Source of the DNA: Sipunculus nudus
Taxonomy: Eukaryota > Annelida > Sipuncula > Golfingiida > Sipunculidae
Length of the DNA stretch: 64,000 nucleotides
Assembly: GCA_026874595.1 (NCBI GenBank)
Contig: CM049316.1
Span: 68,720,676 to 68,784,675, forward strand
Direction: 5' to 3'
Shown here in pieces: positions 2,870 through 62,507 of the stretch. Both the position numbers and the translations under genes were made by a program. Each line of letters begins with the position of its first letter. The stretch's first letter is position 1. The notes below the pieces were generated by a model. That model searched no databases and was not told the DNA's origin. It saw only the letters and a list, made by a program, of their open reading frames with translations.

Positions 2870-2978
2870 AAACCATCAGTTTTGATTCTTCAGATGCCTC
2901 GTTCAGGGAGCAGATTCAAGATGTTTAAGCGCATTATCTGCAGTTTGACACTGGATATAACTGACATGCTAAAAAAAG
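2870..2978 (+). CDS. CYLD: CYLD-like ubiquitin carboxyl-terminal hydrolase, copy 1: internal exon of USP domain
   Basis: First of four visible exons. CYLD is a deubiquitinase of the USP superfamily that trims Lys63- and Met1-linked ubiquitin chains and damps NF-kB and JNK signalling in the cytoplasm. The frame starts KPSVLILQMPRSG and continues FKMFKRIICSLTLDITDML. It matches the human CYLD segment around LIIQMPRFGKDFKLFKKI. The exon is bounded by acceptor TTTCCAG (2863-2869) and donor GGTAAT, with the GT at 2979-2980. It enters in phase 0 and leaves in phase 1. Upstream exons (CAP-Gly domains and catalytic Cys) lie before the window. The next exon is 12.6 kb away, across an intron full of transposable elements. 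Confidence 0.88.
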
Positions 2979-4021
2979 GTAATTATTTCCTTGTCAATTC
3001 TGATTTCTTCCTGTTCAGCACCATAAATACTACTTTTCCTGCAGGCACATATTAGGAAAAATACAGAATGTGTCTACTGTACAATAATAGATAGCTGTAA
3101 TTTTAGCTCTGCTAACTAAATGTCATCTGAGCAATAACATCAAACAATGGTCCTTTGTCAATTGCCTGTCTGACCAGACATCCATTAACAAGGCATGTTT
3201 TGAAACCTTTTGACCCATGAATCCAAAATTCTACATACAGATTTACCAAAGTTTTCCCACCAAACTTCAACTTTGTTCCTTTGCTTTATTAAGAGAAAAC
3301 CACAATTTTCCATTAAACACTTATACACTTCATGACTGCACACCATAAAAACCACAGGTGTTGTTTGTTCATATTAGACATAACCATTTCTGCATATATT
3401 TTTTATGTACATGCAAGAAATTAGGTCAATATAAATAATATTGTTGAACTTATAAGCCCAAACATAAGGCACTTTGTCAAAAATCAGGAAAATTATTTAC
3501 ATACTTGCTTGATAATTGTTGAAACTAGAGAGCCTATTACAACAATATAACTTTAATTTAGTTTTAATTGTATACCAGATATTAGATCAAATGTAAAAAA
3601 ATTAAGTTTTTAGCCTAAATATAAAATTATTACCTTAGATATTGGATACCTTTGGCTGTGACACATTTTAAGTTCAGCTGACTGTAAGTCATCTGAGCTT
3701 AAGCAATCACTCTTTGTCCGTCGTCCTTCCGGCCATCTGGCCGTCTGTCCGTTAACAGGGCTCAAATCGCAACCGCTGGACCTAGAATCTTCTTACTTAA
3801 CATCCAGAGGGGTCCATGAAAAATCTCCTTGGAAACCTGAAATTAGGTCTCTGTTACCCATATTCTTCCAGCTATGGGGCGAAGTACCCCAAAGAATAAT
3901 GGAAAATTTCATACAAAAGTCAAGTATCTGAACAACTAATGCATGGATGGCCATGATCTTTTGCATGAATATTGATCATGGGGTATTTCATCAGTTTCTG
4001 AAGACTTGTGGTGCCACCTGT
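2979..4021 (+). mobile_element. Two degenerate family C copies in the CYLD intron
   Basis: A degraded family C start (TTTTAGCTCTGCTAACT, about 3099) is followed by the usual family C body (CCAAAATT, CACAATTTTCCATTAAA, ACATGCAAGAAATTAGGTC). A second start, AGTTCAGCTGACTGTAAGTCATCTGAGC, lies at about 3671, followed by a GTCCGTCGTCC-type run. Family A sequence starts at 4022. The rest of the second C copy seems to resume at 9341 and to end at 13861, so the A and D elements appear to have landed inside it. Confidence 0.6.
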
Positions 4022-5393
4022 ATTTTTAGCAAACCTGTGAGCTTATGCTATGGTGTGGCGTCGTCCGTCGTTCGTCATCTGTACGTTAACCTATACTATC
4101 TTGAAAACGGCAAGAGTTAGCATCATGAAATTTTATTAAAAAAATTAGTCATCTAAAAAACTCAATTGGAGTTTGTTCATTTTTTGGCTATTGCATTTTC
4201 TTAGATTTTATAGGGAAAAAGCTAAAAAAGCTTTAAAAATCTTCTTCTCTGAAACTGTTCAGCCAAATTGTCCAATATTTCAGAGAAATGATTCTTTGAA
4301 CAATCTCTCTCAAGTTTGTTCGAATGGTTTAATTTCAGTGATTTTTGGCCAAGTTACAGGAAGTTGAACTTAGTCATCTGTCTAAAAAAGCATACTAAAT
4401 TTACAATCTCAGAAATGGCTACAGCTATCATCACCAAATTTTATGCCAATGTTGGTCACATGAGTCATATCTGAAATTGAGGTATTGGTGGCGCTACCTA
4501 TATCGGCCTTTTTTGTATGGGGGTCATCAGTGCTCCTATCATACTGACTGCTACAAAAAATTCTTCTCTGAAACCATTTGGCCAAATTGTTTAATATCGC
4601 AAAGAAATAATCCTAGGGTAGTGCTTTCTGAATTTTGTTCAAATGGTCTCAGTTCAATGACTTTTGGCTGAGTTATGGGAAGCTGAATTTAGTCATATGC
4701 CATAACAGCCCATTTTAGCTTAGTGGCTACAAAGAACTTCTCAAAAACCATTGGGCGAAATTCTTAAATCTCGCACATAAATTATCCTTAGATGTTGATA
4801 ATTCAAGTTTGTTCAAATGGTTTTGGTTCAGTAAATTTTGGCTGAGTTATGGGAAGCTTAGCTTAGCCATATTGCTGTATTTTCCCAAATGAGTTATAAA
4901 CCTGCAAAACGTTTTTTGACTAACGCCACTGAGGCCAATTTGTTTAATATTTTACAGGAATAATCCCCTGAATAATTCTTATAATAATTGTCTTTTATGG
5001 TTCAAACGAATGAATTTTGGCAGAATTATAAAGATTGAATTGAGTCATTTTACCATATATGTTAGCTGTGTGAAGCAGATAATCTAGCCTGGCACCAATT
5101 TATCAGCATCCGTTACATTGTGCCGCTAGACATTTAGATTTTAGGTTATCTATTGTTAATATTGACAAGAATATTTTTTTAAAAGCTTTTAAAAAATATC
5201 AATTTATGATTTTTGATATTCCTCATGCCAGGCAATGTTAACAATCACAGGTATACATCTCTCTGTGGGTGTATAAAGATGGCTGTACATGGATTATAAA
5301 TAAATTGTATCCATACTCAACTTTATTCAAGATTTTGCCATCAGTGAGATGTATCTGTATTATAATTTTGCATTCAATATGGATCTGTAGTAA
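4022..5393 (+). mobile_element. Family A element, 5' part only
   Basis: Starts TTTTTAGCAAACCTGTGAGC, the family A subterminal repeat with one change, then a GTCGTCCGTCG run and the standard A body (blocks such as GCCAAATTGTCCAATATTTC and TTTTGGCTGAGTTA). It has no 3' hairpin before the next family A start at 5394, so it is truncated or interrupted. Confidence 0.65.
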
Positions 5394-7486
5394 TTTTTAG
5401 CGAACCTGTGAGCTAATGCAATGGTTTGGCATCGTCTGTCGTTGTCATTAACCCATACTATTTCGAAAACATCTGGACCTAGTATCATGAAATTTAATGC
5501 AAAAAATTAGCCATCTGAAAGACTGCTTTCTTAGATTTCATAGAGAAAAAGGTAAAATACTTTAAAAATCTTCTCCTTCGAAACAGTAAGGCCAAATTGT
5601 TCAATATTTCACAGAAATAATCATTTTTAATATCTCTCTCAACTTTGTTGGAATGGTTCAAGTTTGGTGAATTTTGGCTGAGTTACAGGAAGTTAAACTT
5701 AGCTAACTGTCCAAAAAAGCATACTAAAATTACAATCTCAGAAACAGCCGGAGCTATCATCACCAAATTTTATGCCAGTGATGGTCACATGAGTCACATA
5801 TGAAATTCAGGTATTGGTGGCGCCACCTGCATTGACCTTTTTTTGTACAGGGGTCATTGGTCTTCTGTACATTAATCCATAATTTCTCAGGAATAGTAGG
5901 AGCTACCATCCCTAGATTTAATGCAATAATCTGTCATATATCAAATGTTGTGGGTTTCAGCTTATTTTTTGCTATCTCCATTTACTTAGATTTTATAGGG
6001 AAAAAGCTGAAAAACCTTTAAAAGTCTTCTTCTTGTAAACGGTCCAGCCAAATTGTTCAATATTTTACAAAAATGATCCCAGAGGCAAGCCCTCTCAAGT
6101 TTGTTCAAAAGGTTTGCATTTGATGATTTTTAGTGGTGTTACACAAATTTGAACAGTCATTTGGCCAATTAAGCATACTGACATAGTAATCTCAGAAATG
6201 ACAGAAGCTATCATTACCAAGTATTGTGCAAATGTTGGTCACAAATGTTGCAGATTTTGTGGTGCCACCTACATTGACCTGTTTTTCATGGGCAAAAACC
6301 TCATTATTTTAGCCTCTTTCAGCTTAAATGTTTATGATGAAACTGTCAGGTTGTGCAAATGTTGGTCACAAATGTTGCAGATTTTGTGGTGCCACCTACA
6401 TTGACCTGTTTTTCATGGGCAAAAACCTCATAATTTTAGCCTCTTTCAGCTTAAATGTTTATGATGAAACTGTCAGGTTGAATTGTTCAATTTTTCAAAA
6501 GAATTATCCTAGGACATGGTTCTTTCAATCATATCAGAAAAGCTTAAGTTGGTCTTGTGGCCATTATTATGTCTATTTCAAACATAGGACTGCAAAGCTT
6601 GAAAAAAAAGCATTTTAGCTAAAGTCTTTCAGTATGTGTAAACAGATTTACCAACAGACCAAGATTGTTTTGGTATCTTTAAATAGGTTGAGAAACTGCC
6701 AACTGTTTCAGATTTGGCAACAGATCAAGAGTTCATTCAGTGCAGCCAGATATAGGTCAAGAGTTCAATCAGTGCAGCTAAGCACAAGGCATGTGATCAC
6801 CTAATGGGTGACATGTGAACACCTCATGGCCACCATGTGATCACCTCATGGGTGTCATGCCCCTCAGGGCTGCATGTGGACTACCAACTGTGTCAGATTA
6901 TGCAACAGGTCAAGAGTTCACTCAGTGCAGCCAGGTAGAGGTCGAAAGTTCACTCAGTCTAGACAGGTGCAGGTCATGAGTTCACCTAGTGCTGTAGCCT
7001 GAGCCAGCTAGCAAATTTGTCACAGTTCACTCGGGGCAACTGCTTTTCTCAACTAAGCCTGGTCAGCCGCATGCATCAGGCTAAAGGTAAGTTTGACGTA
7101 TTGGTCTGATATTTTGACCTGTCTATGTGTCTTTGATGGCTTTCTCGTTCACAAGACAGGTGTCGCCACCTACAGTGACTTTTGCACAGTGTTTGTGCCT
7201 GCTTATTTCTACAGAGGAATTTGATATATCAGCCTGAAATTGGGCATATGTATAGTTCTCTGATAGCTTCGTTGTATACAAGACTGGTGGTGCCAGCTAC
7301 AATCATTTTTGTGTTGTGTGCACCCATGCCAGAATTTCAGCAGTGATGTATGTGTAATTGTTTCATATTCAGAATGTTTAGTACTTGCATTATTCATATA
7401 CATGAGAAGTAATGGTCCAGCATTGAAGCATTATACCTGGTGTATTTCCCAATGCACAGGTTCGCACTAGGCCCATAGGCCTTGTT
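5394..7486 (+). mobile_element. Family A Helitron-like element, full ends (A2)
   Basis: Begins TTTTTAGCGAACCTGTGAGC and ends CACAGGTTCGC + hairpin (AGGCC-CATA-GGCCT) + TGTT. The subterminal GCGAACCTGTG and CACAGGTTCGC are exact inverted repeats. Inside are a 127-bp recent duplication (6224-6477), a minisatellite of about 24 bp (CATGTGATCACCTCATGGG, about 6788-6870) and a 'GTCAAGAGTTCACTCAGTGC' block repeated about every 30 bp. At 7305/7306 it has the unoccupied form of the site that family B occupies in two other copies. Confidence 0.72.
6224..6477 (+). repeat. 127-bp tandem duplication inside A2
   Basis: Units 6224-6350 and 6351-6477 are almost identical, with one obvious change (CATTATTTT versus CATAATTTT). 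This indicates a very recent duplication within a much older, diverged element. Confidence 0.9.
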
Positions 7487-7488
7487 AA

Positions 7489-9340
7489 TTTTTATGCCCC
7501 CGCCACAAAGTGGCCGGGGCATATAGTTTTACCCATGTCCGTCATTCCGTCCTTCCGAAATCAAACAGTTGTACAGACTTTTTTTGGCAATGCCTGCAGA
7601 TATTGGCCTGATTATTGGTGTATGGGCAGATATAGACTAGTTACAGATCTAGTTCACGTTTCGTCCCGGTTGACCTATTTTGACCGATTTACGGCTCCTA
7701 AACTTAGAAAATTTCATGAAAAATAGAAATTTCATGACAAATACACATGTACAGACTTTTTTTCCCAATGCCTGCAGATATTAGCCTGAGTTCGTGTTTT
7801 GTCCCGGTTGACCTTCTTTTGACCCCTTTATGGCTCCCTAAACTTAGAAAATTTCATGAAAAATAGAAATTTTCATGACAAATACACATGTATAGACTTT
7901 TTTCGCAATGTCTGCAGATATTTGCCTGATTTTTGGTGTGTGGGCAGATAATGACCAGTTACAGGTTGAGTTCGCGTTTTGTCCCAGTTGACCTACTTTT
8001 GACTGTTTTACGGCTCCTAAACTTAGAAAATTTCATGAAAAATATAAATTTTCATGACAAATACACATGTACAGACTTTTTTTCGCAGTGCCTGCAGATA
8101 TTGGCCTGATTTTTGTCTGTGGGCAGATAATGACCAGTTACAGATTGAGTTCACGTTTCATCCCAGTTGACCTTTTTTTGAACGTTTTACGCCTCCTTAA
8201 CTTAGAAAATTTCATGAAAAATAGAAATATTCATGACAGATACACATGTACGGTCTTTTTTTCGCAATGCCTGCAGGTATTGGCCTGATTTTTGGTGTGT
8301 GGGCAGATAATGACCAGTTACAGATCGAGTTCACGTTTTGTCCCAGTTGACCTACTTTTGACCATTTGACGGTGCTCTAACATAGAAAATTTCATGAAAA
8401 TTATGAAATTTCATGACAAATACACATGTACGGACTTTTTTCGCAATGCCTGCAGATATTGGCCTGATTTTTGGTGTGTGGGCAGATATTGACCAGTTAC
8501 AGATCGAGTTCGCGTTTCGTCCCAGTTGACCTACTTTTGATTGTTTTACGGCTCCTTAACATAGAAAATTTCATGTAAAACATAAATTTTCATGACAAAT
8601 ACACTTGTACAGACTTTTCTTCGCAATACCTGCAGATATTGGCCTGATTTTTGGTGTGTAGGCAGATAATGACCAGTTACAGATCAAGTTCAAGTTTTGT
8701 CCCAGTTGACCTACTTTTGACCATTTGACGGTGCTCTAACATAGAAAATTTCATAAAAAAGTGCACATGTATGGACTTTTTTCGCAGTGCCTGAAGATAC
8801 GGGCCTGATTTTTTGGTGTGTAGGCAGATAATGACCAGTTACAGATCGAGTTCTTGTTTTGTCCCAGTTGACCTACTTTTGACCATTTGACTGCTCCTGA
8901 ACATAGAAAGTTTCATGAAAAATAGAAATTTTCATAACAAATGCATATGTACTGATTTTTGTCCTCAATGCCTGCAGATACCACCCTGATTTTTTATGTG
9001 TTGGCAGATAATGACAGTTACAGATTGAGTTCCCGTTTCATCCCGGTTGACCTACTTTTGATTGTTTTACGGCTCCTAAACATAGAAAATTTCATGAAAG
9101 ACAGAAATTTTTATGGAAAATGCAATTGTATGGACTTTTTTTCACAATGCCTGCATATACTGGCATGATTTTTGGTGTGTTGCTTGATAATGACCCGTTA
9201 CAGATCGAGTTTGCATTTTGCCCTTGTTGACCTACTTTTGACCATACGACACCTCCTGAACTTAAAAAATTTTTCAAAATTTTACAAATGTTTCTTATTT
9301 GCCCCAGGCGGGGGCATTCGTGTCGTTCGGACACATCTAG
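7489..9340 (+). mobile_element. Family D Helitron-like element with about 180-bp core repeats
   Basis: Starts TTTTTATGCCCCCGCC at an A^T junction. It opens with a hairpin (GCCCC-CGCCAC-AAA-GTGGCC-GGGGC) and ends GGCGGGGGCAT (9307-9317), hairpin GTGTC-GTTCG-GACAC, then AT-CTAG at 9337-9340 followed by a host T. ATGCCCCCGCC (7494-7504) and GGCGGGGGCAT are exact inverted repeats. The core is a tandem array of about ten units of roughly 180 bp, each holding CTGCAGATATTGGCCTGA and AGAAAATTTCATGAAAAAT. It sits immediately 3' of A2. No transposase or helicase frame is present, so it is non-autonomous. Confidence 0.78.
7560..9290. repeat. Tandem array, about 10 x 180 bp
   Basis: The landmark GCCTGCAGATAT, with variants, recurs near 7590, 7770, 7910, 8090, 8270, 8450, 8630, 8790, 8970 and 9150. 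Units are mostly 170-185 bp, with one or two shortened. The short frames here are readings of the repeat and are not genes. Confidence 0.85.
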
Positions 9341-9650
9341 TTTTTCTCTGTTTTTTTAGACCTTTAAAGATGCGTTCCTCTATTTACAGGGCAAAAATTG
9401 TAACCACTAGATCTTTTATCTTGACAGGCAGGGAGGTCCATGAAAAGTCTCTTAGGAAACCTTAAATTAGGTCTCTGTTCCCCAAAACCTCTGAGCTATG
9501 GGGCTTCAAAGTACCTCCCTGATTAATGGAAAAATTGTTATGAAAGAACAAGTATCTGAACAACTAATGCATTGATCACCATGATTCCTTGCAAAGATAT
9601 TGATCAAGGAGTGTTTCATCAGTTTCTACAGACTGGTGGTGCCACCTGTA
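9341..9650 (+). mobile_element. Family C fragment between D and A3
   Basis: Directly after the D end the sequence resumes with TTTTTCTCTG...TTTAGACCTTTAAAGATG. The same text follows the A4 end at 13297 (TTTTTCTCTTTTTTAGGCCTTTAAAGATG). It then reads AGGGAGGTCCATGAAAAGTCTC, as in other family C copies, so it belongs to the C element interrupted by A and D. Confidence 0.55.
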
Positions 9651-10386
9651 TTTTTAGGGAACCTGTGACCTTATGCGATGGTGCGTCGTAGCACGTTGTG
9701 CATCATTTGTACGTTAACCATAGCTAACTCATAAAATGGCAGGAGCTAGCATCACTAAATTTTTTGGAAATGATCAATCATCTGAAAAACTCTATCAGAT
9801 TTTGTTTATTTTTTTCTAACTGCATTTTTTTAGATTTTATCTTCCTGTATCTTCCTTTATGAGTTGTAAACCTGCAAAATGGTTTTTGACTGACGCCACT
9901 AAGCCAGTTTGTTTAATATTTTACAGGAATAATCCCCACAATAATTCTTATAATAATTGTCTGAAATAGTTCCACATGAATCATTTTTGATGAAGTAGCC
10001 TGAAATAGGGCATATATATACATATTGGGTAGCTTCATAGTGTACAAGACTGGTGTCGCCACTTAAATAAATTTTCGCAGAGTGTATGCCCCTGCTTATT
10101 TTGCAGGAGGGGTTTGACATATCATTCTGACATTAGGCATATGTATGTATCTCTTCTTTGTATACAAGACTGGTGGTGCCAGCTACAAGCATTTTTGTGT
10201 TGTGTGCACCCATGCCAGAATTTCAGCAGTGATGTTTGTGTAATTGTTTCTTGTTCAAAGTGTTAATTATATGCATTGTTCATATACATGTTACACATGT
10301 TCTTGAAAAGTAATGGTCCAGCATTGAAGCATTATACCTGGTGTAATCCCATTGCACAGGTTGGCATTAAGCCTGTAGGCCTTGTT
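9651..10386 (+). mobile_element. Short family A element (A3, internally deleted)
   Basis: Starts TTTTTAGGGAACCTGTGACC and ends CACAGGTTGGCATTAAGCCTGTAGGCCTTGTT. Only about 736 bp, with the middle of the family missing. It keeps an unoccupied family B site at 10191/10192 (CAAGCA^TTTTTGTGTTG). Confidence 0.65.
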
Positions 10387-10402
10387 TAATTTTTTTTTAC
10401 AA

Positions 10403-13296
10403 TTTTTAGCGAACCTGTGAGCTTATGCGATGGCGCAGTCAGTGTCGTCCGTCCGCCGTCTGCCGTCCAGGGCTGGCTTTCCGCCGTCCATGGCTGTAAG
10501 TCAGAAACTGTCGGAGCTAGCAGCTCCAAATTACATGTAAAAATTTGTCACATGTAAAACTTGGTGCCCTGGAGCTTATTATTGGGTATCTGCATTAATT
10601 TAGATTTTATAGAGAAAAAGCTTAAAAACCTTTAAAAATCTTCTTCTCTGAAAATGTCCAGCCAAATTGTCCAATATTTCACGAAAAATGATCCCTGGAA
10701 CAATCTCTCTCAAGTTTGTTCCAATGGTTCCAGTTCGGAGATTTTTGGCCAAGTTACAGAAGGTTGAACTTAGTCATCTGTCCAAAAAAGCACACTAAAA
10801 TTAAAATCTCAAAAACAGCTGGAGCTATAATGACCAAATTTTATAATAATGTTTGTCACATATGTCATATCTGATTTTGAGGTATTGGTGGCGCCACCTA
10901 CATTGATGTGTTTTTTACAAGCGAAAACGTAATTTTAAACTCTTCTAGCTTATACACTGATATATGATGAAACTGTACAGCTGATTGGTTTAAACTTTAC
11001 AAGAATTATTCTATCGTAGGGTTCTGCCAGTTTTATAAAAATAGATTGGGTAAATACAGTTTTAAAAAAGCATTGTAGCTAATTGAAAAAGGCTTTCTGT
11101 ATTTGAAAACAGATTTGATTTCATACTGAGTTTCAGCAGCCAAGTAAGAGGTCACTCAGTACAAACAGGTGGGGTCCAGACATCACCATGGCAACTGACC
11201 TGGCTGGGGGGGGGGGATGTCTATGCAATGTTTCTAGACGTCTAGACACAGCGTCTAGACGTCTGGACACATTGTTTAGAAGCAGAATTCCCAGATTATT
11301 GGAACTGTATCTTTCAACTGTTTGAAAAAACTTGGTTTGCATTTTAAGCAAATCGGTTTATCATTAGGTCACATGTGAACTGCTGCACCCTCATTTTTGG
11401 TTGACCTCTGACCTTTCCTTGCTGCCCTGCGTCCATTTGTGCGTCTGTTTCCAAACATAAACCCACATATCTCGGGAACCATTTGACCGATCAGGCTAAA
11501 AATTTTGCACAAATGTAGCCCTTTGATAGCTTTATAACATACACTAAAATTTTGGCGCCACCTGCAACCATTTTTGCACAGCGTCCATCTGTTAATCTGC
11601 CTTTGGATAATATTACTCATATCTCTGCAGTGGTTTGACTTATCCACCTGAAATTTTTCAGGTTTATACATCCTGGACAACTTTCTCCATTTATATCATG
11701 TGGCGCCACCTACATTGGCATTTACTCTGCAGACATCAAAGCTCATAGTTGGGAACCGTTTGACCGATTGGGCCAAAATTTTGCATGTGTATAGATCTCA
11801 CATAGCTCTTCATCATAAGCAAAACTGGTGGCGCCACCTGCAACCATTTATGCACAGCCTCCATCTGTTCATCTGCCTAGGGATAAAATCACTCATATCT
11901 CAGCAGTGGTTTGACTAATCCACCTGAAATTTTGCAGATTTATACATCCTGGACAGCTTTCTCGGTTTTATGACAGGTGGTGCCACCTATATTCACGTTT
12001 ACTCTGCAGACATCCAAGCTCATATCTCGGGAACCGTTTGACCGATTGGGCCGAAATTTTGTTTGTGTATAGATCTCACAAAGCTCTTCATCATAAGCAA
12101 AACTGGTGGCGCCACCTGCAACCATTTATGCACAGCGTCCATCTGTTGATCTGCCTTGGGATAAAATCACTCATATCTCAGCAGTGGTTTGACTTATCCA
12201 CCTGAAATTTTGCAGGTTTATACATCCTTGACAGCTTTCTCGATTTTATGACAGGTGGCGCCACCTGCAACCATTAATGCACAGCGTCCATCTGTTCATC
12301 TGCCTTTGGATAAAATCACTCATATCTCAGCAGTGGTTTGACTTATCCACCTGAAATTTTGCAGGTTTATACATCATGGACAGCTTTCTCAATTTTATGA
12401 CAGGTGGCGCCACCTACATTCACATTTACTCTGCAGACATCCAAGCTCATATCTCAGGAACCGTTTGACTGATTAGGCCAAAATTTTGTTTGTGTATAGA
12501 TCTCACATAGCTCTTCATCATAGACAAAACTGGTGGCGCCACCTGCAACTGCTTATGCACAGCATCAATCTGTTGATCTGCCTTGGGATAAAATCACTCA
12601 TATCTCAGCAGTGGTTTGACTTATCCACCTGAAATTTTGCAGGTTTATACATTCTGGACAGCTTTCTCGATTTTATGACAGGTGGCGCCACCTACATTTG
12701 TGTTTACTCTGCAGACATTTAAGCTCATATCTCGGGAACCGTTTGACCGATTGGGCCAAAATTTTGCTTGTGTATAGATCTCACATAGCTCTTCATCATA
12801 GACAAAACTTGTGGCGCCACCTGCAACCGCTTATGCACAGCATCAATCTGTTGATCTGCCTTGGGATAAAATCACTCATATCTCAGCAGTGGTTTGACTT
12901 ATCCACCTGAAATTTTACAGGTTTATACATCCTGGACAATTTTCTTGATTATATGTCGGGTGGCACCACCTACATTCACGGTTAAGCTGCAGACATCCAT
13001 GCTAATATGCAACACACCAATCTCTATTCCCCTTGCCACTTAATCCATGCCTCACTTCACCCGTCCCACTCTGATTTCTGCGGATACACATAGTGGCTTG
13101 TTGACTACCCATATTCTGGTTTTAAAATGTCCTAGTCCGAAACTTGCAGTTAAGAAATGTCCATTTTGCTGAAATCATAATGACTAAGGTAGATATGCAG
13201 GACTTAAGAGGATCAATATTAAATTTTAAAAATAAACCTCCATTCATAAACCTCCTAAACTTTGCACAGGTTCGCATTAGGCCTGTAGGCCTTGTT
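10403..13296 (+). mobile_element. Family A Helitron-like element, full ends (A4), with satellite core
   Basis: The subterminal GCGAACCTGTG is at 10409-10419 and its exact inverse CACAGGTTCGC at 13265-13275. The 3' hairpin AGGCC-TGTA-GGCCT is at 13279-13292. The middle (about 11350-13122) is family B-type sequence: CACATGTGAACTGCTGC, then a satellite array with GGTGGCGCCACC joints, then GCGGATACACATAGTGGCTTG...CCATATTCTG. A run of G and repeated TCTAGACGTCTAGAC palindromes lies at about 11205-11280. Confidence 0.75.
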
Positions 13297-13861
13297 TTTC
13301 TCTTTTTTAGGCCTTTAAAGATGAGGTCATCTGTTTACAGTGCACCAATCATATTGACAGGACCTAGAATCTTTCACCTTGACATCATGGAAGGTCCATG
13401 AAAATTCTCCAAGGAAACCTGAAATTAGGTCTCTGTTACCCAATCAATTTGAACTATGTCGCTCAAAAGTGCCCTCAAAACAAATAAAAGTTTAAAAAGA
13501 AACCAGGGCACATATCATAACCATTGGACCTAGAATCTTCTAATTTGTCATCCAGGGAGGTCCATGTATAAGTCTCCTTGCAAACTTTAAATTTTAGGTG
13601 TCTTTAACTCATATTTTCCAATTCATGCCGCATGTTTAAGCACACTAAAAATAATGCAAAATATACTCAAATTGCAAGATTCCTCAGAAATGGGTGAATG
13701 GATTATTCCAAAATTTGGTGTGCTAATGGTTCTTAATGAACTAATGCTAACTTGCATGAAAAATGGTGCCACCTCCATTATCTTAATTAGTTCCCTATGC
13801 AAGGACATATTGTCAACATGTCAGTCAGCTGAGCGTCATGACCCATGGGTCACTTGTTTTC
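13297..13861 (+). mobile_element. Family C 3' end
   Basis: Ends with the family C terminus: TCAGCTGAGC, then the perfect palindrome TGACCCATGGGTCA, then CTTGTTTT (about 13822-13861). TCAGCTGAGC is the inverse of the family C start AGCTCAGCTGA. This looks like the distal end of the C copy that begins at about 3669. Confidence 0.65.
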
Positions 13862-15574
13862 TAATAAGCACTTAAATTAATCATCACATCCTCAGCAATC
13901 ATAATATTTTAATCTTTCATAATTTGAATATAAAAGCAGATGATAAAACAATCTAGCTTTTATTGAAATTTTTAGAAGAGAATAATATTTAACTTCAAAG
14001 AAGTTGACAGTGAACTTGTACTGATAGTTACTTTAACTGTTAATGTTATACAGTTTATTTAAAGGATATAATTAGTTTTAGTTTATGTCTAAGCCTACTC
14101 TTGAGATCAATTTTTTTAATTATAGAAAATATATTTAAGCTTTAATTTAAACAAACATCAACAAAAATTGCCTCTAGTTTGAACTAAGCACAATTCTTTG
14201 CAGGAAGCAATTTGATTAGATTACCAATTCTGAATTTTGAAAGTATTTGCCCCCAAACTGGACAGGTTTCAGAAGTATTAAAAGAAGCCATGCCATATTT
14301 CAGTGTAATACCTGCTGGTCACTAAAGTTCAAGAATGCTTTCCAGTGAAGCTTCACTTGGAAGGCCACCAGCTAGGCTAGATGAGTTTGGCAACAGCAAT
14401 TGAGTCAGATGCCTATAGTTACCAAGAGAATACCTGCCCTCCCCCCCAAGTTTATAGCACATTGTGTAACAACACAAGCAATGTAATAGATTTAGATATA
14501 TATCCTAGGACTGATGAGACATTTTGATGTTTGATATTACAATGGTTGACCTCATTCACTCATTCTTCTTCCACTGTATGATGTATTGCTTGAATTTTTA
14601 TCATTAGTACAGACACAGCAGATGATATAAAAAAGGATCAACATTCTTTGGAGACATTAAGGAAGAACCTCAATTTTCCATTAGATAGCCATTGTTACAC
14701 TTCAAGACTGCCTAATGTCAAATCCACAGATCTGTTTTTGATCATAAGCAAACCTGTGAGCTTATGCGATGGTGTGGCGTCATCTGTAGTCTGTACATTA
14801 ACACATACTTTCTCAAAATTGGCAGAAGCTATCATCACCAAATTTTATGCAGAAAATAAATTAGTCATCTAAAAAACTATCAGATTTTGCTTATTAAGCA
14901 AATTAATTTGAATTTCTGGTGGTGCCACCTGCATCAGCCTTTTCTGTATGAATGTCATTGGTCATTAGAATATAAACCATTTATTTCTCAGGAATAGCAG
15001 GAGCTGGCATCCCCGAAATCATGCAAAATCTGTCACAAATATCAAATGTTGTGGGATTGAGTGTTTTGTGGTCCCACCTGCATTAACTTACATTTTACAG
15101 AGAGAAAAAGCTATAAAACCTTTGGAAATCTTCTTCTCTGATATTGTTCAGCCAAATGGTTCAATATTTCACAAAACTGATATCAGAGATAAGCCCTTTG
15201 TTCAAATGGTTTAGATTTGATGAATTTTGATGGAGTTACAGGAATTCGAACTTAGTCATATGCCTAATTTAGGATACTGACATTAATAACTACGAATCAA
15301 CAGGAGCTAGCATCACAAAGTTTTGTGCTAATGTTGGTCATATGACTCATATTTGAAATTGCAGTTCTTGTGGCACCACCTACATCAACCTGCTTTTAAG
15401 GACACAAAGGAAAAAGGACATTTTCTTTCAAATTTAGGTTCACAAAGTTTTTGATATGTTGTTCCATTGGGGTGTCATAATCATGCACTCATGTTAATAA
15501 TACCTGACTTATGAATTTTATTTATTTGATAAACATTTCTTCCTTCTTTGATTAATTTTGTCATGTGTAAATAG
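13862..15574. other. CYLD intron with a degraded family A fragment
   Basis: 13862-14740 is AT-rich with no recognisable exon. From about 14747 (AGCAAACCTGTGAGCTTATGCGATGG) to about 15400 the family A body is present without a 3' end. The intron closes with a weak acceptor, GTAAATAG, at 15567-15574. Confidence 0.5.
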
Positions 15575-15696
15575 CTGCCAGAGAGTGTTGTGTGTGTGGT
15601 GGCCTTGCAACAGAAGAATGCGCAGAGTGTTATAGGCAGTTCAGTGAGCACAAGGACATGTGTCTGGTTCCATTTTGTCAGTTGTGCAGTGAAAAA
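15575..15696 (+). CDS. CYLD: CYLD-like hydrolase, copy 1: exon with first half of the zinc-binding B-box
   Basis: Enters in phase 1; the G from the previous exon plus CT gives Ala. It reads ARECCVCGGLATEECAECYRQ, then FCQLCSEK. The three CxxC pairs (CCVC, CAEC, FCQLC) line up with CYLD CRICGGLAMYECRECY ... CKTC, the small B-box-type zinc module inserted in the CYLD USP fold, which the parent USP family lacks. The donor is a strong AAA|GTAAGT, leaving in phase 0. All visible zinc ligands are kept, which argues for a working protein. Confidence 0.88.
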
Positions 15697-15917
15697 GTAA
15701 GTTCTGATTTCATTTTGTTATGAAAGATCTCTCATTCCTATAAAGCTACTCTTTCTCTGTACCCTTTCCCTTTTTATGTCTCTTGAAATACTCTTGAAAT
15801 ATGTTGAACTTTAAAGCAAGATCTGTTTGAAATGTAAGTAACTCAAAAGGATCATGAAACCTGAAATATGATCAAATTGCCAATTTCTTGAGCTATGTAT
15901 TTATACAATTTTGATTC
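15697..15917. other. CYLD intron, unique sequence before the nested elements
   Basis: Short AT-rich stretch from the donor to the first family A start. No feature recognised. Confidence 0.4.
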
Positions 15918-16040
15918 TTTTTAGCGAACCTGTGAGCTTATGCCATGGTGTGGCATCGTGCGTCATCTGTCGTGCGTCATGCGTTGTCTGTACGTTAACC
16001 ATAGCTATCTCAAAAACTGCAGGGGCTAGCATCACCCAAT

Positions 16041-17870
16041 TTTTTAGCGAACCTGTGAGCTTATGCGATGGTGCGGCGTCGTGTGTCGTGCGTCGTACGC
16101 CGTGCGTCGTCTGTACATTAACCATAGCTATCTCAAAAACGGCAGGAGCTAGCATCACCAAATATTTTGCAAATAATCATTCATCCAAAAAACTATATCA
16201 GATTTTGTTTATTTTTTTCTAACTGCATTTTCTTAGATTTTATAGGGAAAAAGCTAAAAAAGCTTTAAAAATCTTCTTCGATGAAACTGTCCAGCCAAAT
16301 TGTCCAATATTTCACAGAAATTATCCCTGGAACAATCTTCCTCAAGTTTGTTCGAATGGTTCCAGTTGGAAGATTTTTGGCCAAGTTACAGGAGGTTGAA
16401 CTTTGTTAACTGTGCAAAAAAGCATATTAAAATTTAAATTTTAAATTTTTGCACAGTGTATGTCCCTGCTTTTATTTTACAGGAGGGGTTTGACATATCA
16501 GTCTGACATTGGGCACATTATATATCTCTTCGTTGTATATAAGACTGGTGGTGCCAGCTACAATCATTGTATCCGCCAAAACAGAGTTTTGCAGATACTA
16601 TGTTTTCAGTCGGACGCAGACGCTGCCACCATCACCGCATAGGTTTCCAGAGAACTCCTCCATAACCACTGGGCAGAATTTTTTAAAATTCAGAATTATG
16701 ATCCGTCACATGTGAACTGCTGCGCCCTCATTTTTGGTTTACCTCTGACCTTTCCTCTCTGCCATCGTCCATTTATGCGTCTGTTTCCACACTTAAACCC
16801 ACATATCTCGGGAACCATTTGACCGATAAGGCTAAAGATTTTGCACAAATGTAGCCCTTGGAAAGCTTTATAACATACACCAAAAATTTTGGCGCCACCT
16901 GCAACCATTTTTGCACAGGGTCCGTCTGTTCATCTGCCTGTATCTCTGTATCTCTGCATTGGTTGGACTTATCCACCTGAAATTTTGCATGTGTATAAAT
17001 CCTGGACAGCTTTCTTGAGTTTATGACAGGTGGCGCCACCTACATTCACGTTTAAGCTGCAGACATCCAAGCTCATATCTCGGGACCTGTTTGACCAGTT
17101 GGGCCAAAATTTTGCATGTTTATAGATCTCACATAGCTCTTTATCATACGCAAAAATGGTAGTGCCACCTACAATCATTTTTGCACAGGTTTTTTTGCAT
17201 GTTTATACATCTTTGATAGCTTTCTCGATTTTGTGGCAGGTGGCGCCACCTATATTTATGTATACGCTGCAGACATTCAGGCATATATATAAGGACTGGT
17301 TTGACATATCCCCCTGAAATTTTGCATGTGTATTGATCTCACATAGCTCTTAATCATACACAAATTTGGTGGCGCCACCTGCCACCTTTTTTGCACAAGT
17401 CCTTTTGTTTGTCTGCCGTGTGCTAAAATCACTCATATCTCAGTAGTGGTTTGACTTATCTGCCTAAAATTTTGCATATGTATACAACTTGGACAGCTTT
17501 CTGGATTTTGTGGTAGGTGGCGCAACCTACATACACATTTCGGCTGCAGACATCCAGGCTATTATGCAACACACCTCACTCTATTTCCCCTTGCCACTCA
17601 ATCCATGCCTCACTTCACCCATTCCACTCTGATTTTGGCTGATACACATAGTCCCTTGTTGACTACCCATATTCTAGTTTTTGTGTTGTGTGCACCCATG
17701 CCAGAAATGCAGCAGTGATGTTTGTTTAATTGTTTCTTGTTCTAAGTGTTTAGTACTTGCATTGTTCATATACATGTTACACATGTTCTTGAAGAGTAAT
17801 GGTCCAGCATTGAAGCATTTACCTGGAGTAATCTCATTGCACAGGTTCACATTAGGCCTGTAGGCCTTGT
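16041..17870 (+). mobile_element. Inner family A element (A5) inserted into another A copy
   Basis: Complete ends: TTTTTAGCGAACCTGTGAGC at 16041 and CACAGGTTCACATTAGGCCTGTAGGCCTTGTT ending at about 17870. It splits the outer A copy at a T tract, with no visible target-site duplication. It carries a family B element inside (16567-17677), making three nested layers. Confidence 0.7.
16567..17677 (+). mobile_element. Family B Helitron-like element (B1), nested in A5
   Basis: Begins TTGTATCCGCCAAAA and ends TTTGGCTGATACACATAG ... hairpin GTAGTCCCTTGTTGACTAC, CCATATT, CTAG at 17674-17677. The empty site elsewhere reads CAATCA^TTTTTGTGTTG; here CAATCA precedes and TTTTTGTGTTG follows. Insertion was therefore exactly between A and T, with no duplication, the hallmark of Helitrons. 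The 3' hairpin about 7 nt before CTAG also fits. There is no Rep/helicase frame. The core holds the GGTGGCGCCACC satellite. Confidence 0.8.
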
Positions 17871-19090
17871 TTAAAATATCAGTCATCTGAAAAACTCTAT
17901 CGGATTTTGTTAATTTTTTTTCTAACTTTTTTCTAACATTTTCTTAGATTTTATAGATCAAAAGCTAAAAAAGCTTTAAAAATCTTCTTCTCCGAAACTG
18001 TCCAGGCAAATTGTCCAATATTTCACAGAAATGATACCTGGAAACAATCTCTCTCAAGTTTGTTCGAATGGTTCCATTTTGGAGATTTTTGGCTGAGTTA
18101 AAGGAGGTTAAACTTAGGCATCTGTCCAAAAAAAGCACACTAAAATTAAAATCTCAGAAACCGCTAGAGCTATAATCACCAAATTTTATACCAATGTTTG
18201 TCACATATGTCATATCTGAAATTGAGGTATTGATGGCACCACCTACATTGATGTTTTTTACAAGCGAAAATGTAATTTTAAACTCTTCTAGCTTATACAC
18301 TGATTTATGATGAAACTGTTAAGCTGTTTGGTTTAAACTTTACAAGAATTATTCTATGGTAGGGTTCTGCCAGTTTTATAAGAATAGATTGGGTAAATAC
18401 AGCTTTGAAAAAGCATTGAGGTCACTCAGTACAAACAGGATGGGTCCAGACATCACCATGGCAACTGACCTGGCTCTGGCGGGTGTCTAGACAATGTGTC
18501 TAAATTTCCAGACACAGCGTCTAGATGTCTAGACACAATGTCTAGATGCAGAAATCCCAGATTATTGGAACTATATTTTTCAACTGTTTGAAAAAACTTG
18601 GTTTGCATTTTTAGCGAATCAGGTTTATCATCAGGTCACATGTGAACTGCTGCGCCCTCATTTTTGGTTGACCTCTGACCTTTCCTCGCTGCAGAGAATC
18701 CATTTGTGTGTCTGTTTCCACACATAAACCCACATTTCTCGGGAACCGTTTGACCGATCAGGCTAAGAATTTTGCACAAATGTAGCCCTTGGAAAGCTTT
18801 ATAACATACAGTAAAAATGGTGGGGCCACCTGCAACCATTTTTGCACAGCGTCCATCTGTTCTTCTGCCTTCGGATAATATCACTCATATCTCAGCAGTG
18901 GTTTGACTTGTCCACCTTAAATTTTGCAGGTTTATACATCCTGGACAGCTTTCTCGATTTTATGACAGGTGGCACCACCTACATTCACGTTTACTCTGCA
19001 GACATCCATGCTAATATGCAACACACCTCACTCTATTCACATTGTCACTTAATCTGTGCCTCACTTCACTCATCCCACTCTGAGGTGTTT

Positions 19091-20091
19091 GTTAGACAAC
19101 AGTGATGTCACAAAGACACAATGGTTGGTCGCATATCATCAGCTTGACTGCAGGCTTGTTTATAATCAGTACTCCAGTGAGATCACCTGTTTTGTCATAT
19201 TTCGGATTGTCTAATATGAATTCCAAGCATGCTTGGTAAGGCATAATTTTTACACAGGTAGTTTGCAGAATAGCTCCTGCAACCTTTGGACCAGGAATGT
19301 CTATACTGCTTCACTTGTATGAAAAATTAACCTGGAAAAACAAGCAGACATGGATACTCAGACAGACCATTGTCAGCCATTCAGCAGAATGGTTGTATAG
19401 GAGTGTTAGACCTAGGGTGTTCTCTCTCCAGAAGGGTCAGCGGGATATTTCAAGGCTGCTTATTCTTTAAGCTATGCAAACAAACTGACTTTAAGTACCT
19501 TGGAAGTCATATTATTTTCTTGTGTTCAAAGCTGTTGAAAAAAAATTTACAATTTGATCCCAAAACTAAATAAATACACCTCATCTCCATCCCCATAATG
19601 GAACATTGAACAAATTGGCCCAGCTATTCCTGTAGAAATGTTACTCAAAATTTGTTAAAATTTCACTGCAGTGGTTCCATTTACAGATTCTCCAGTTTCT
19701 AAAAAAAAATGTGCCTGATTTATCATGGACATCTTTTTATGTTTTATGAGATTAGTGGCTGCCCTATATATTTTGTTTTAAAAAATATTTAGTTGATATC
19801 CAAATTGAATATCCCCTATCTCTACCTCAAATGTATGGAGTACCTTGAAATTTGTCATGTTTATTCTGTCTGTTCATATCAAATTAATCAAATTCAACTG
19901 AGTTATTGGTGTGAAACAACAAGAATCAACAGACATAAGCATTTTTGTGCCATCTGTGCAACGCTGTACATATATTCAGTATAGGAATTAATTAAAAGGC
20001 AATATGAATTAATAACTTTTGGTCAGTGAATGTGGAATATAGTAAATGCAAGTCACAAGCTGATACTTGACCATGAATCTGGTTTTTGTAG
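19091..20091. other. CYLD intron, no feature recognised
   Basis: AT-rich unique-looking sequence with no exon signal until the acceptor GGTTTTTGTAG at 20081-20091. Confidence 0.4.
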
Positions 20092-20323
20092 TGTCACAAC
20101 CATCCAAACCGTCGTACACACAGAAGAAGACCCTTAGAAATGCCGGCTGATTTGATTAGATATATTTCTCATGATGGCAAACAACCTGAACCTATTAACA
20201 GGGAAACGCTTGAGCTGTTTGCCGTGATGTGTATAGAGACCAGCCACTATGTGTCATTTGTGAAATGTGGAACAGACAAAGGTGCCCCATGGGTGTTCTT
20301 TGACAGTATGGCAGACAGGGAAG
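20092..20323 (+). CDS. CYLD: CYLD-like hydrolase, copy 1: exon with second half of B-box and catalytic His box
   Basis: Phase 0 entry, phase 1 exit (GAAG|GTAAGA). It starts CHNHPNRRTHRRRPLE, which supplies the His ligands that complete the B-box (human CYLD: HLHPKRLNHKYNP). It then reads TLELFAVMCIETSHYVSFVK and WVFFDSMADREG. The His of ETSHYV (20245-20247) is the catalytic His of the USP triad. The Asp of FFDSMADR (20302-20304) is the conserved acidic position. Nothing is missing, so this end of the domain looks catalytically competent. Human CYLD reads LFAVLCIETSHYVAFVK and FFDSMADRDG here, a strong match. Confidence 0.93.
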
Positions 20324-20829
20324 GTAAGAGTTTCTTAGACTTATTGCAAGTCATAGGAAGTGCTTATATCTTATTTAAATATTGACTTTGGTATGTGAGA
20401 GGTCAATTAAAAGCCTAAAGCTGCTAATTACTGCTGTGATCATTTCATATGATTATTTAAGCAGTCTTCATTGTTCTTAGTTTATTACACAAAACTAGTC
20501 TCACAAAGTTTATTCACCACATTTTTTCATTAAACTTCTAATTGCAATCATTTTGGTGACTGATAAAATTATTAGGCAGTTATGAATATTTAGTACATAA
20601 GTCAAGCTGTAAGTTTGAGGTTTATCAAATTGTATTATTTCTTTTACTTCCCTTGTATCCATCTGTCATTTTACAATTTTAAAACCATTATCAGTACTTT
20701 GGAGGTGACTTCGCAAAAATTTCATGAAACTCATAATACATATTTACCAATAGAGTTTCTCACCTAAACTACATTCCCATCAAAATTCACACATATTTAA
20801 TTAGGTCAGAGGTCACCAGATACATAATT
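20324..20829. other. CYLD intron, no feature recognised
   Basis: AT-rich sequence between the donor at 20324 and the family A fragment. Confidence 0.4.
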
Positions 20830-21582
20830 GGCGAATTATGCATGTTTGGGGTGTAATTTTCTGTAATTTTTTGCGGAGTTACAGGAAGCTGAAATTAGTC
20901 TTTAGGCGAAATAACGTATAATCTCTAAAAAGGCAAGAGCTATTACCGCCAAATGTTATGCAAATATTGGTAACATGAGTCATATTTGAAATGGAGGTAT
21001 GGGTGGTGCCACATTCATAAACCTTTCCTGTTAGGGGATCATTGGTCATTTATACATTAACACATAATATCTAATGAACAGCAGGAGCTAGCATCACCAA
21101 ATTTTATGCTAAAAATACTCTTTGTGTCAAATGTTGTGGGGTTGAGCTTTGTGGTGCAAACTGCATTGAGAAACATTTAATTGGGAAAAGCTAGAAAACC
21201 TTCGAAAATCTTAGAAAGTTTTGTTGTGTACATGACTTGCAGCACCACCTAAATTTGTTTATGGGTTTTGTGCATCTGGGTACATAGCCCAAGAGTGCCT
21301 GAAACTTTGCATGTCCAAACATATTTGATGGTTTTCTCGTACGCAAGACTGGTGGGTGGTGCCACCTACAATCATTTTGTGATGTGTACTTCCATGCCAG
21401 TATTTCAGGTGTGTTGTTTGTGTAATAGGTGCTTTTAATCAGGTTCAGAATGTCCAGTACCTGTATTGTATATACACATGTCATACATGTACTTACAAAA
21501 AAAAAAAAATGGACCAGCATGGAAGCATTATACCTGATGTATGTCCGATTGCACAGGAGGGCATTAGGCCTGTAGGCCTTGT
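20830..21582 (+). mobile_element. Family A fragment with 3' end
   Basis: Contains diverged A body sequence (TTTTTTGCGGAGTTACAGGAAGCTG, a GGTGGTGCCAC joint) and the family 3' end GCATTAGGCCTGTAGGCCTTGTT ending at about 21582. The subterminal inverted repeat is mutated (GCACAGGAGGGC) and the 5' end is absent. Confidence 0.65.
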
Positions 21583-21777
21583 TAAAATAACCTACTGGTT
21601 CTAGATGTTAAGATATTAAATGGTCTTAATTTTATGCAATGGTTATTAGGTTTTATATATTTTAATCATTCTGCACCTGAGAATGTTTTTACACTTTTGG
21701 AGCGCTATATAAATTAATGAATGTAATGTAATTAATGTAATATGTATAATGTACATATGACCATATTATTATTGCAG

Positions 21778-49254: not shown

Positions 49255-49261
49255 CAGGCCC

Positions 49262-50427: not shown

Positions 50428-50469
<42 letters not shown>

Positions 50470-54232: not shown

Positions 54233-55228
54233 ATGGCGACGAGGCCTCACATGTCTCTTGCTACAGAAATGAGAGAATGCCCAGTCTGTCTGGATGACAT
54301 GCTGAATAAGACACCGAAACTCCTCGAATGTAAACACTCATATTGTATGTCATGTCTCTCTGGACTAGCAGTGGCACACGGAAGATCTGGTTTAAATATA
54401 TCGTGTCCAAAATGTAAACATAACACAGTTGTGAAGTCTGGGAAGTTGTCCGACCTGCCGAGTAACTTTCTGCTCGGGGAACTGAAGGCCGCAATAGAAG
54501 AACACTTACGCTATCCTTACTGTTTCTATTGTAACAAACAGGGTGCGGAGACCAGGGCTGTAAGTCAATGCATGAACTGTCGCAGATACCTGTGTAAAGA
54601 TTGCTTGGATAAGCACCAGAGAAACCCACGATTTTCAAACCATGAAATAGTTACATTAAGGAACGAAAAAGAAGAACATTGTTCAAAACACGATGAACCT
54701 GTTCTGTATGTTTGTATGGCTTGTACTCCTGCTCGTTTAATTTGCGATGTTTGTATGGTTCTGGATGGCCAATATCATGCTCCAGAGGAGCTGATAGACT
54801 ATGCAACAGCCGTTTCGGAAATAGAGTCTGAGATCAAATCACACATTAGCCAAGACATAGATGTAGATGATGAGGTATCCAAAATTGAATCCAAGCAGCA
54901 AACACTGACACAGAAAGTTCAGGAAAATGCTGATACTTTTAAAAAGTGTATAGAAACGACCAAAAATGATATTGTCTCTAAGATTACGAAGGGCTTTGAC
55001 GTTGAGTCATTAAAGATTGCAGCTGAAAATGCTAAAGAGTCAAAGCTGAAGGCAGAAGAGTTGCTGAAGAAAGGAAAAAAGAGAATGGATGAACTCAGCG
55101 AGGCTGCCGTGCAGATCACTATAACATTACAGAAACTGTCAGAAGAGAAAGAGAGAGCCCTCCGTGTTGATACTTACGAGTTCCACAAGGTAGCTGAACC
55201 ATTTTGCGTAGATGAAGCATGCTTCTAA
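54233..55228 (+). CDS. TRIM-like RING / B-box / coiled-coil protein (331 aa, single exon)
   Basis: Probably an E3 ubiquitin ligase. In order: C3HC4 RING at residues 16-61 (Cys16, 19, 33, His35, Cys38, 41, 58, 61 all present; motif CPVCLD...CKHSYCMSCL...CPKC); B-box1 at 97-137 (Cys97, 100, 113, 116, 121, 124, His128, 137); B-box2 at about 150-182 (CSKH...CMAC...CDVC...H); predicted coiled coil at about 190-310, rich in Lys/Glu. This is the RBCC order of TRIM proteins. It has no C-terminal NHL, PRY-SPRY or other reader domain before the TAA at 55226-55228, as in many short bivalve TRIM-like proteins. AATAAA at 55565-55570 supports an independent one-exon transcript. A usable donor, AAG|GTAGCT, at 55189/55190 could instead splice it onward in phase 0. 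Confidence 0.88.
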   Translation: MATRPHMSLATEMRECPVCLDDMLNKTPKLLECKHSYCMSCLSGLAVAHGRSGLNISCPKCKHNTVVKSGKLSDLPSNFLLGELKAAIEEHLRYPYCFYCNKQGAETRAVSQCMNCRRYLCKDCLDKHQRNPRFSNHEIVTLRNEKEEHCSKHDEPVLYVCMACTPARLICDVCMVLDGQYHAPEELIDYATAVSEIESEIKSHISQDIDVDDEVSKIESKQQTLTQKVQENADTFKKCIETTKNDIVSKITKGFDVESLKIAAENAKESKLKAEELLKKGKKRMDELSEAAVQITITLQKLSEEKERALRVDTYEFHKVAEPFCVDEACF

Positions 55229-55636: not shown

Positions 55637-55709
55637 GAAGAAGAGCTAATTGGTGGCATTGATGGAGCATACATGAAGTTTAAGTTATTTGATTTTCCAA
55701 CAGAGATCG
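55637..55709 (+). CDS. Putative exon: second half of a CAP-Gly-like domain, CYLD-like copy 2
   Basis: Reads EEELIGGIDGAYMKFKLF and DFPTEI. It lines up with the CAP-Gly stretch of CYLD just before the USP domain (LEDECAGCTDGTFRGTRYF): acidic run, Gly-x-x-Asp-Gly, then aromatic. Boundaries are GGAACAG| and ATCG|GTGAGT, a strong donor. It enters in phase 0 and leaves in phase 1, exactly the phase needed by the Cys-box exon at 62252 (joining gives Glu). The match is short and the acceptor is weak, so this is tentative. CAP-Gly domains of CYLD bind partners such as NEMO or microtubules. Confidence 0.42.
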
Positions 55710-57432: not shown

Positions 57433-57511
<79 letters not shown>

Positions 57512-57513
57512 AT
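57433..57513. repeat. (AT)n microsatellite
   Basis: AT dinucleotide run of about 80 bp with one frame slip near 57500. Confidence 0.98.
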
Positions 57514-57669: not shown

Positions 57670-57771
57670 GCTCGGCAATAAACCTTTGCGAAATGATATC
57701 CAATTTCTTAGGATTTGAGCATACACGTGGGAAATTTCTCCCGAAATACAAACTTGGGATCGTTCCCGACG
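57670..57771 (+). CDS. Candidate cassette exon, product unknown
   Basis: Acceptor TTCTCATTCAG, 102 nt (34 codons), donor GACG|GTAGAAG, phase 1 at both ends. It could therefore sit between 55709 and 62252 without breaking frame. It reads SAINLCEMISNFLGFEHTRG then KFLPKYKLGIVPD. No family recognised. The frame also continues past the donor to a TAG near 57833. Low confidence. Confidence 0.22.
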
Positions 57772-60840: not shown

Positions 60841-61730
60841 TTATTGATTATTTTCCCATGTATTCTGAGCAACAAGTTTTGCCTTCTTTGTTTCATCTCT
60901 GATATATACCACTCCTTCCTTTCTATCAACGTACAGTTTTCGTGAGCAGAGGGGCATGCTTGTAAAATATGTCAGAAAGTGTAGAATTATATGCAGCTGA
61001 CAGTTCGTCAAAAACTTCTTTATTATAATTGAGTAATCCACAATTAACAATGTTCTGCTTAAAATGTGTAATATTTATAGAATTTATCTTGCGAAAAGTA
61101 TTTTTTTTTCTAAATCTTCCTCCCTCTAGAACATTAGATGCCCAAAACCGAACAGTGATCTGAAATGTATTCACCAGCCTTTAAATTGATCATTGTAATG
61201 TCAATGTTAAATCTGGTAACAATCAAATCAAATTTTTGGCCGGATGTATGTGTTAGATCTCTCAAATGATTTACAAAGTTCATGTTTTGCAACTAATTTT
61301 GTATCTCATGGGCATCGTAGTCAGTTTGTAATTCCATATGGGTATCAAAATCTCCAGCAATGATCAGGCCTTTACACATGACCACAGATTCCAAGAATTC
61401 ACTAAATTTCTTATGAAATGTTCTGGTGGTAAGGGAATTGGGCAGACACCAATTACTCTAATAAATCTGGATTTATATCAGGACTCATGGCGCAAATTCA
61501 CATGACTTTTTAGTTGGTAATATCCACATTTACAAGATCAAATTCCTGCCTATAAAGTAACCCCTATCCAACTCCAGTTCTACCCATTTGCAAAATGTAA
61601 CTGATACGAAAACCCTCTTCATGTCGCTCAGTGTCAATTTCAGCTCTTCATATATCCTTTCAAAAACGTGGAAAAATGCTCCCACAATAATACCTGGCTG
61701 TTATGCACAGGCGCGTACAGTTATGAGGGC
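60841..61730 (-). mobile_element. Degenerate non-LTR retrotransposon (LINE) fragment: endonuclease and start of linker
   Basis: Read on the minus strand in pieces: RTGVG near 61580, IIAGDFDTHMELQTDYDAH, HTSGQKFDLIVTR, YISDHCSVLG, then FDELSAAYNSTLSDIFYKHA and a Lys-rich stretch ending TKKAKLVAQNTW. These are the conserved blocks of the APE-type endonuclease of LINEs (GDFN..H, SDH) and the linker before the reverse transcriptase (YN..L..I.D.HAP). Frameshifts and stops break it, and the RT catalytic region is not seen, so it is a dead fragment, opposite in strand to the host gene. Confidence 0.78.
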
Positions 61731-62251
61731 AATTCATATAGATTACAGACTACATTGCCATGAACATATAAAATTTAAACTAATCTCATTTCCATATGCA
61801 AGAATTATTTAAGCCTTTTAGATAGCTTAGCACTGTGATCTATGGTCCCTTGTATTTTTTTGTCATCACACTGAATTCTACAAATGTCACACATTGCAAC
61901 AAACATCTCATCAAATAAGATTATTCATCACTATAATGCCATCTTCTGGTAACTACTAGCACAATTGTCCCGTAACAGTACGGATTCATATCTGTGTGGT
62001 TCCATTTTGTGGCTTTCAGGAGCTGGCCCCTGCCATGTATAATGCAAATTTGAACCACAGTGCACGAATATTAAACCAACCAAGTATCCTGGTACAGAAA
62101 ACAATGAAGATAGACCTAGTTTTGTGATCTTTTGTTTTCCTATGCAGAGACAGATTATGCTTGGCCTAATTTAGTCATAATTGAATATTGTCACCATTAG
62201 TTTCATTATTCTTGATATGTTCCTTTTTTTTTTTGTTTACATTGTATTCAG
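61731..62251. other. Putative intron upstream of the Cys-box exon
   Basis: AT-rich. It ends in a strong polypyrimidine tract (62220-62245) and ATTCAG acceptor. Confidence 0.5.
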
Positions 62252-62507
62252 AAGGCAGCCAATTACCAGGTGTACAGGGCTTTTCACAACCACTCGTGCA
62301 ATATGATGTCAAAAGACTACTTGGTGTGAATAAAGGAATACAAGGACATCATAATTCTTGTTACCTGGATTCAACATGGTTTTGCATGTTTTCCTTTGCT
62401 GATGTTTTTGATGAGATTCTCCACCGACCAAAAGGAAAAGATGATGTTGATGAATATAGGGATGTAGAGACTGTGCTTAAGGAACGCATTGTGAATAGAC
62501 TTAGAAG
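62252..62507 (+). CDS. CYLD: CYLD-like ubiquitin hydrolase, copy 2: exon with catalytic Cys box
   Basis: Enters in phase 1 (acceptor TTGTATTCAG) and leaves in phase 2 (AGAAG|GTATTT). It contains GIQGHHNSCYLDSTWFCMFS, the USP Cys box in its CYLD form (human GIQGHYNSCYLDSTLFC). The nucleophile Cys codon is 62359-62361. It continues FDEILHRPKGKDDVDEYRDV and ERIVNRLRR, as in CYLD LRPKEKNDVEYYSETQ...EIVNPLR. Upstream residues GSQLPGVQGFSQPLVQYDVK match the linker between the last CAP-Gly and the USP domain. The exon lies downstream of a complete CYLD 3' end on the same strand, so it belongs to a second gene. Its remaining exons fall outside the window. Confidence 0.92.

Follow-up and report, generated by a model that had tools for sequence, protein, structure and literature searches.

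CYLD-like exons on both sides of a RING/B-box-like reading frame in a 64-kb stretch of DNA

CYLD-like exons in the window

The window is the whole stretch of DNA analysed here, 64 kb in length. It was searched by tblastn with the human CYLD USP domain, a query identical to the PDB chain 2VHF over 374 residues. Five matching stretches were detected, all on the + strand and with E values from 1e-20 to 1e-4: 2867-2974 (1e-7), 15580-15699 (1e-4), 20095-20325 (7e-18), 21780-21935 (1e-5) and 62317-62538 (1e-20). Beyond these five, the next matches had E values of at least 4.2, the chance level. In the PDB searches, the CYLD exons matched CYLD (2VHF) and the chains 3WXE, 3WXF and 3WXG. The latter three are named uncharacterized protein in PDB, and we take them to be zebrafish CYLD. 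The CYLD-like exons are real and correctly read, and the family is an ordinary one.

Exons at 2870-21986 (gene 1): The first visible exon (2870-2978, +, phase 0 to 1; tblastn E 1e-7) begins with KPSVLILQMPR and has AG/GT borders with splice scores of 9.5 and 8.0. It encodes USP residues from about 166. The preliminary description had placed a "USP core" at 2870; the USP identity is correct, but the exon does not hold the whole core, as it starts near residue 166 of 374. The second exon (15575-15696, +, phase 1 to 0; tblastn E 1e-4), identified also from its sequence and alignment, carries three Cys pairs, CCVCGG..ECAEC..FCQLC, which belong to the CYLD B-box. In the third exon (20092-20323, +, phase 0 to 1; tblastn E 7e-18, with a PDB match to 2VHF), the end of the B-box is followed by the His box (CIETSHYVSF, FFDSMADRE). 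The USP His box of gene 1, CIETSHYVSFVK, was assigned by the PDB match and by tblastn. The last exon (21778-21986, +, phase 1 to stop; tblastn E 1e-5) ends with TAA at 21984-21986, and an AATAAA follows at 22238. The internal exon borders are all AG/GT and the phases of the four exons, read on the DNA, are consistent throughout. The introns are 1.5, 4.4 and 12.6 kb long. Within the first visible intron, 7651-9272 is a tandem array whose unit measures about 179 bp.

Gene 1 and human CYLD share 98 of the 196 aligned residues (50%; 16 gap positions left out). Inside the USP domain, the human B-box stretch is matched in the alignment by the three Cys pairs and HNHP...H, and we take these to be the zinc-binding residues. 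A B-box module is included in the CYLD catalytic domain (PMC8511506).

Exon at 62252-62507: The CYLD Cys box, GIQGHHNSCYLDST, lies in an exon at 62252-62507 on the + strand, which is entered in phase 1 and left in phase 2. The exon was recognised by its sequence, by PDB 2VHF (E 3.7e-21) and by tblastn (E 1e-20). The PDB search with this exon also gave one unrelated chain, at E 0.85. The motif GHHNSCYLDST is intact, the splice borders are intact and internal stops are absent. The Cys box with the catalytic Cys, GIQGHHNSCYLDST against GIQGHYNSCYLDST, was assigned by the PDB match and tblastn, and 35 of the 63 residues (56%) are identical to human CYLD. As described before, the exon is located downstream of the stop of gene 1 (TAA 21984-21986).

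The Pfam UCH model reached 11.4 bits on the Cys-box exon (cut-off 23.9, E 0.24), and no family was matched by the three gene 1 ORFs submitted to Pfam. Thus, the CYLD parts are not nameable by Pfam alone.

Human CYLD and the window have in common the Cys box, the USP domain from about residue 166, the B-box insert, the His box and the C-terminal end. In contrast to human CYLD, the Cys box and the His box of the window lie in two parts and in reversed order, and neither CAP-Gly nor the USP middle was found in the window. CAP-Gly domains precede the USP domain in human CYLD (PMC8511506). The CAP-Gly searches used human sequences as queries, and the 5′ part of gene 1 falls outside the window. With a human N-terminal part, tblastn against the window gave a best E of 2.3. 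A profile built from eight CAP-Gly sequences gave at best 6.2 bits (E 1.2) against 2901 reading-frame pieces of the window, and a scan for CAP-Gly-like motifs returned four scattered matches.

RING/B-box-like reading frame between the CYLD parts

An ORF of 331 aa with its own ATG and stop is located at 54233-55228 on the + strand. It contains a RING, B-box-like segments and a possible coiled coil, and is TRIM-like. Two RING models exceeded their Pfam cut-offs, zf-RING_UBOX with 31.6 bits (25.2) and zf-C3HC4 with 26.6 bits (21), and the RING matches in PDB were TRIM2, TRIM56 and TRIM3. The B-box models remained below the cut-off (ANCHR-like_BBOX, 22.8 against 27; zf-B_box, 14.5 against 24.1), while the Cys/His spacing fits by eye. 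Thus, of the RING/B-box gene named in the preliminary description, the RING stands above its cut-off and the B-box does not. The AlphaFold2 model, built without an alignment and of low confidence (mean pLDDT 45.3), has helices at residues 211-252 and 257-324.

The ORF resembles the TRIM family of E3 ligases in that a RING above the cut-off is followed by B-box-like segments and then by predicted long helices, the latter from the low-confidence model. It differs from them in the B-box models below the cut-off, in the absence of a C-terminal domain and in its length of only 331 aa.

The RING was the sole domain above the cut-off in the scanned stretches, which were 22-32, 34-44, 44-54 and 54-64 kb on the + strand and 44-54 and 54-64 kb on the − strand; from 1-22 kb, four short peptides were covered. 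Scans of long reading frames are insensitive; the Cys-box exon escaped detection by them.

The order of USP, B-box, His box, stop, RING/B-box ORF and Cys-box exon, all on the + strand, was confirmed by tblastn, exon reading and PDB matches, in agreement with the preliminary description.

One CYLD gene or two

The exon at 62 kb covers USP residues 5-67, whereas the exons at 3-22 kb cover about 166-368, and the two sets do not overlap. Neither tblastn nor blastn detected two copies of the same USP segment within the window. The USP middle, about residues 65-164, was searched for in both end stretches. In 1-2900, leaving aside the exon at 2870, the best score was 31, and ten shuffled queries scored 25 to 31; in 62508-64000 it was 28, where the shuffled queries scored 28 to 41. 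Elsewhere the best scores were 35 in 2979-22000 and 40 in 22000-62250, to be read alongside shuffled controls that cover the end stretches only. Since the CYLD parts do not overlap, a tandem pair and a single misordered gene are not separable by content. The earlier claim of two head-to-tail CYLD genes therefore holds for order, strand and domain identity; the exons do not by themselves demonstrate a duplication, as no USP segment was found twice. Matching copies, if any, would fall outside the window.

The explanation that we favour overall, giving it about an even chance of being right, is that the window contains the 3′ end of one CYLD-type gene and a second, paralogous CYLD-type gene, with a separate TRIM-like E3 gene between them. 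Gene 1 would be the 3′ end of a CYLD-type deubiquitinase gene. About 40 kb further on and on the same strand, the catalytic domain of the second, paralogous gene would start. The TRIM-like gene, with its RING, B-box-like segments and probable coiled coil, would stand separately between the CYLD parts. The arrangement would most likely reflect a local duplication of the ordinary kind, in an animal genome rich in repeats; a CYLD duplication is likely.

The same exons could be seen if a single CYLD gene had had its 5′ and 3′ parts misordered by the assembler, or if an unpurged haplotype copy lay in tandem. We regard this as rather unlikely. In its favour, the visible parts are complementary and without overlap (5-67 against about 166-368), the first 23 kb contain large tandem-repeat arrays, which are sites where assemblers can fail, and the 20 listed repeat families (of 30) all lie within the first 42 kb, so that the repeat content differs between the parts. 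If this were the case, there would be one CYLD gene and no cluster. However, the letter N is absent from all 64 kb. Thus, there is no marked scaffold gap between the CYLD parts, which mildly favours tandem paralogues. Furthermore, blastn of 1-42 kb against 42-64 kb detected six diverged repeat matches with 73 to 90% identity, and these shared repeats make it plausible that both parts belong to the same genome. None of these observations, the differing repeat content included, is decisive. If genes at least about 19 kb long stood in a tandem array, a 64-kb slice of it would give an identical picture. It is conceivable, with very little probability, that the exon at 62 kb is instead an orphaned partial duplicate that lacks the remaining catalytic domain. 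No further CYLD exon was recognised in the 1.5 kb downstream of it. However, with introns of 1.5, 4.4 and 12.6 kb in gene 1, the next exon may well fall past the window end. The exon is also open, with intact splice borders, and matches human CYLD (35/63) as well as gene 1 does (98/196).

The separateness of the TRIM-like gene was weighed against a different gene structure, in which the RING/B-box/coiled-coil ORF serves as 5′ coding exon for the second CYLD gene, with splices from 55189 to 55637-55709 and onward to 62252. Whichever exon precedes the Cys-box exon must end in phase 1, and the candidate exon at 55637-55709 (+, EEELIGGIDGAYMKFKLFDFPTEI; phase 0 to 1; donor 9.2, acceptor 2.6) has this phase. 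Both junctions are in phase, and the searches recognised no alternative upstream exon for the second CYLD gene. With untrained splice weights, the donor at 55189 in the RING ORF scores 6.3, where four known donors score 5.2 to 10.4, and the mediocre acceptor at 55637 (2.6) falls within the range of five known acceptors (1.3 to 9.5). With a score of 17.4, the candidate tops its interval, the next distinct one reaching 12.3, and its codon score was reached by 12 of the 2668 open stretches before any GT. However, 2 of 41 also reach it when the open stretches are restricted to those before GTRAG. The codon model is itself weak, giving scores below zero to two of the six known pieces, including the Cys exon, when these were left out. 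In addition, the controls, 42 overlapping stretches of the same length taken from non-coding parts on both strands, contained an equally good phase 0-to-1 exon in 4 cases, and one of any phase in 17. Within the RING ORF, a stop follows 36 bases past the donor at 55189. An AATAAA at 55565 also speaks against the splicing, but is weak evidence since the + strand of the window has 67 of them. Moreover, RING/B-box genes lacking such a fusion are common. We therefore rate this splicing as improbable, and equally so its product, a single chain of RING, B-box, coiled coil and CYLD USP that might perhaps lie in tandem with gene 1. The TRIM-CYLD fusion is live but unproven.

Two candidates in this region were rejected. 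The segment at 55.6 kb resembled CAP-Gly by eye (GGIDGAY..LFDFP) and gave a weak tblastn match (E 4.8); it ranked eleventh in the profile search with 3.6 bits and had no PDB match up to E 10. Between 55709 and 62252, 42 open stretches could by their incoming phase serve as an intermediate exon, but none was convincing. The confidence of the RING ORF model does not support a splice at residue 319, as it declines only gradually from about residue 311. Past the RING ORF and ahead of the Cys-box exon lies an (AT)41 microsatellite (57433-57513).

Possible function and comparison with other animals

Under the preferred explanation of two CYLD-type genes and a separate TRIM-like gene, we infer that both CYLD genes are expressed and enzymatically active, possibly with an immune role. 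Each CYLD protein is predicted to remove Lys63- and Met1-linked ubiquitin chains by means of the Cys/His catalytic pair. This activity would dampen NF-kB-type signalling, and the TRIM-like protein would attach ubiquitin. If both CYLD genes are real, the lineage would have more than one CYLD-type enzyme, a further case beside the expansions of ubiquitin and cell-death genes known from some invertebrates. A protein uniting ligase and protease would be a single-chain ubiquitin editor built from TRIM and CYLD parts. A20 follows a comparable logic with other building blocks. As it stands, the outcome is a modest annotation result.

The preliminary description had gone further and suggested a ubiquitin cluster acting in innate immunity, which we regard as speculation. 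The gene groups expanded in bivalves include those with RING and B-box (PMC8382680); thus, one RING/B-box neighbour carries little weight, even if the host were a bivalve. Oyster IAP genes are described in PMC8917759 as having expanded mainly via tandem duplication, with new domain architectures. They are thus a tandem-duplicated immune family of bivalves, although their protein family differs from CYLD.

CYLD itself appears in several reports. Human CYLD is cut at R324 by an oyster paracaspase (PMC5978004), a CYLD-annotated transcript was reported in Aplysia (PMC8195618), an oyster infection study has CYLD among cell-death genes (PMC9162580), and a planarian cyld-1 is listed in PMC7958881. 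In Branchiostoma, PMC3503706 describes TRIMs with MATH domains similar to those found in MATH-UCH proteases; these may serve as a loose precedent for exchange between TRIMs and proteases. Among the matches listed (e.g. the best 15 of 5,213), no title refers to CYLD genes in tandem or to a fusion of TRIM and CYLD.

Repeats and other elements

Rfam at gathering scores gave no match in the window, and no tRNA was found. Against viral contigs, the Cys exon and the RING ORF had 16 and 3 pattern stretches, respectively, with none confirmed. Two repeat patterns compared with viral contigs, one of them also with genome contigs, had no matches. The His-box exon had 56 pattern stretches in genome contigs, and the only one confirmed by tblastn was bacterial (16 residues, 75%) and was taken as chance. 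On the − strand, a weak endonuclease/reverse transcriptase trace was observed at 61146-61442 (PF14529, E 0.0091, 16.3 bits, cut-off 27.4).

The stretch from 1 to 37 kb consists largely of repeats, several of which contain internal tandem arrays. The repeat content changes between 1-42 kb and 42-64 kb (20 listed of 30 families), possibly at a join. One repeat has internal tandem units of about 278 bp and was found at 377-1938, 11553-13008 and 22710-23451, and also at 16983-17397; in two of the arrays the unit is 272 and 210 bp. Its flanks recur near 71-434, 11240-11603, 18507-18870 and 34002-34365, and the whole resembles a mobile element that has a tandem core.
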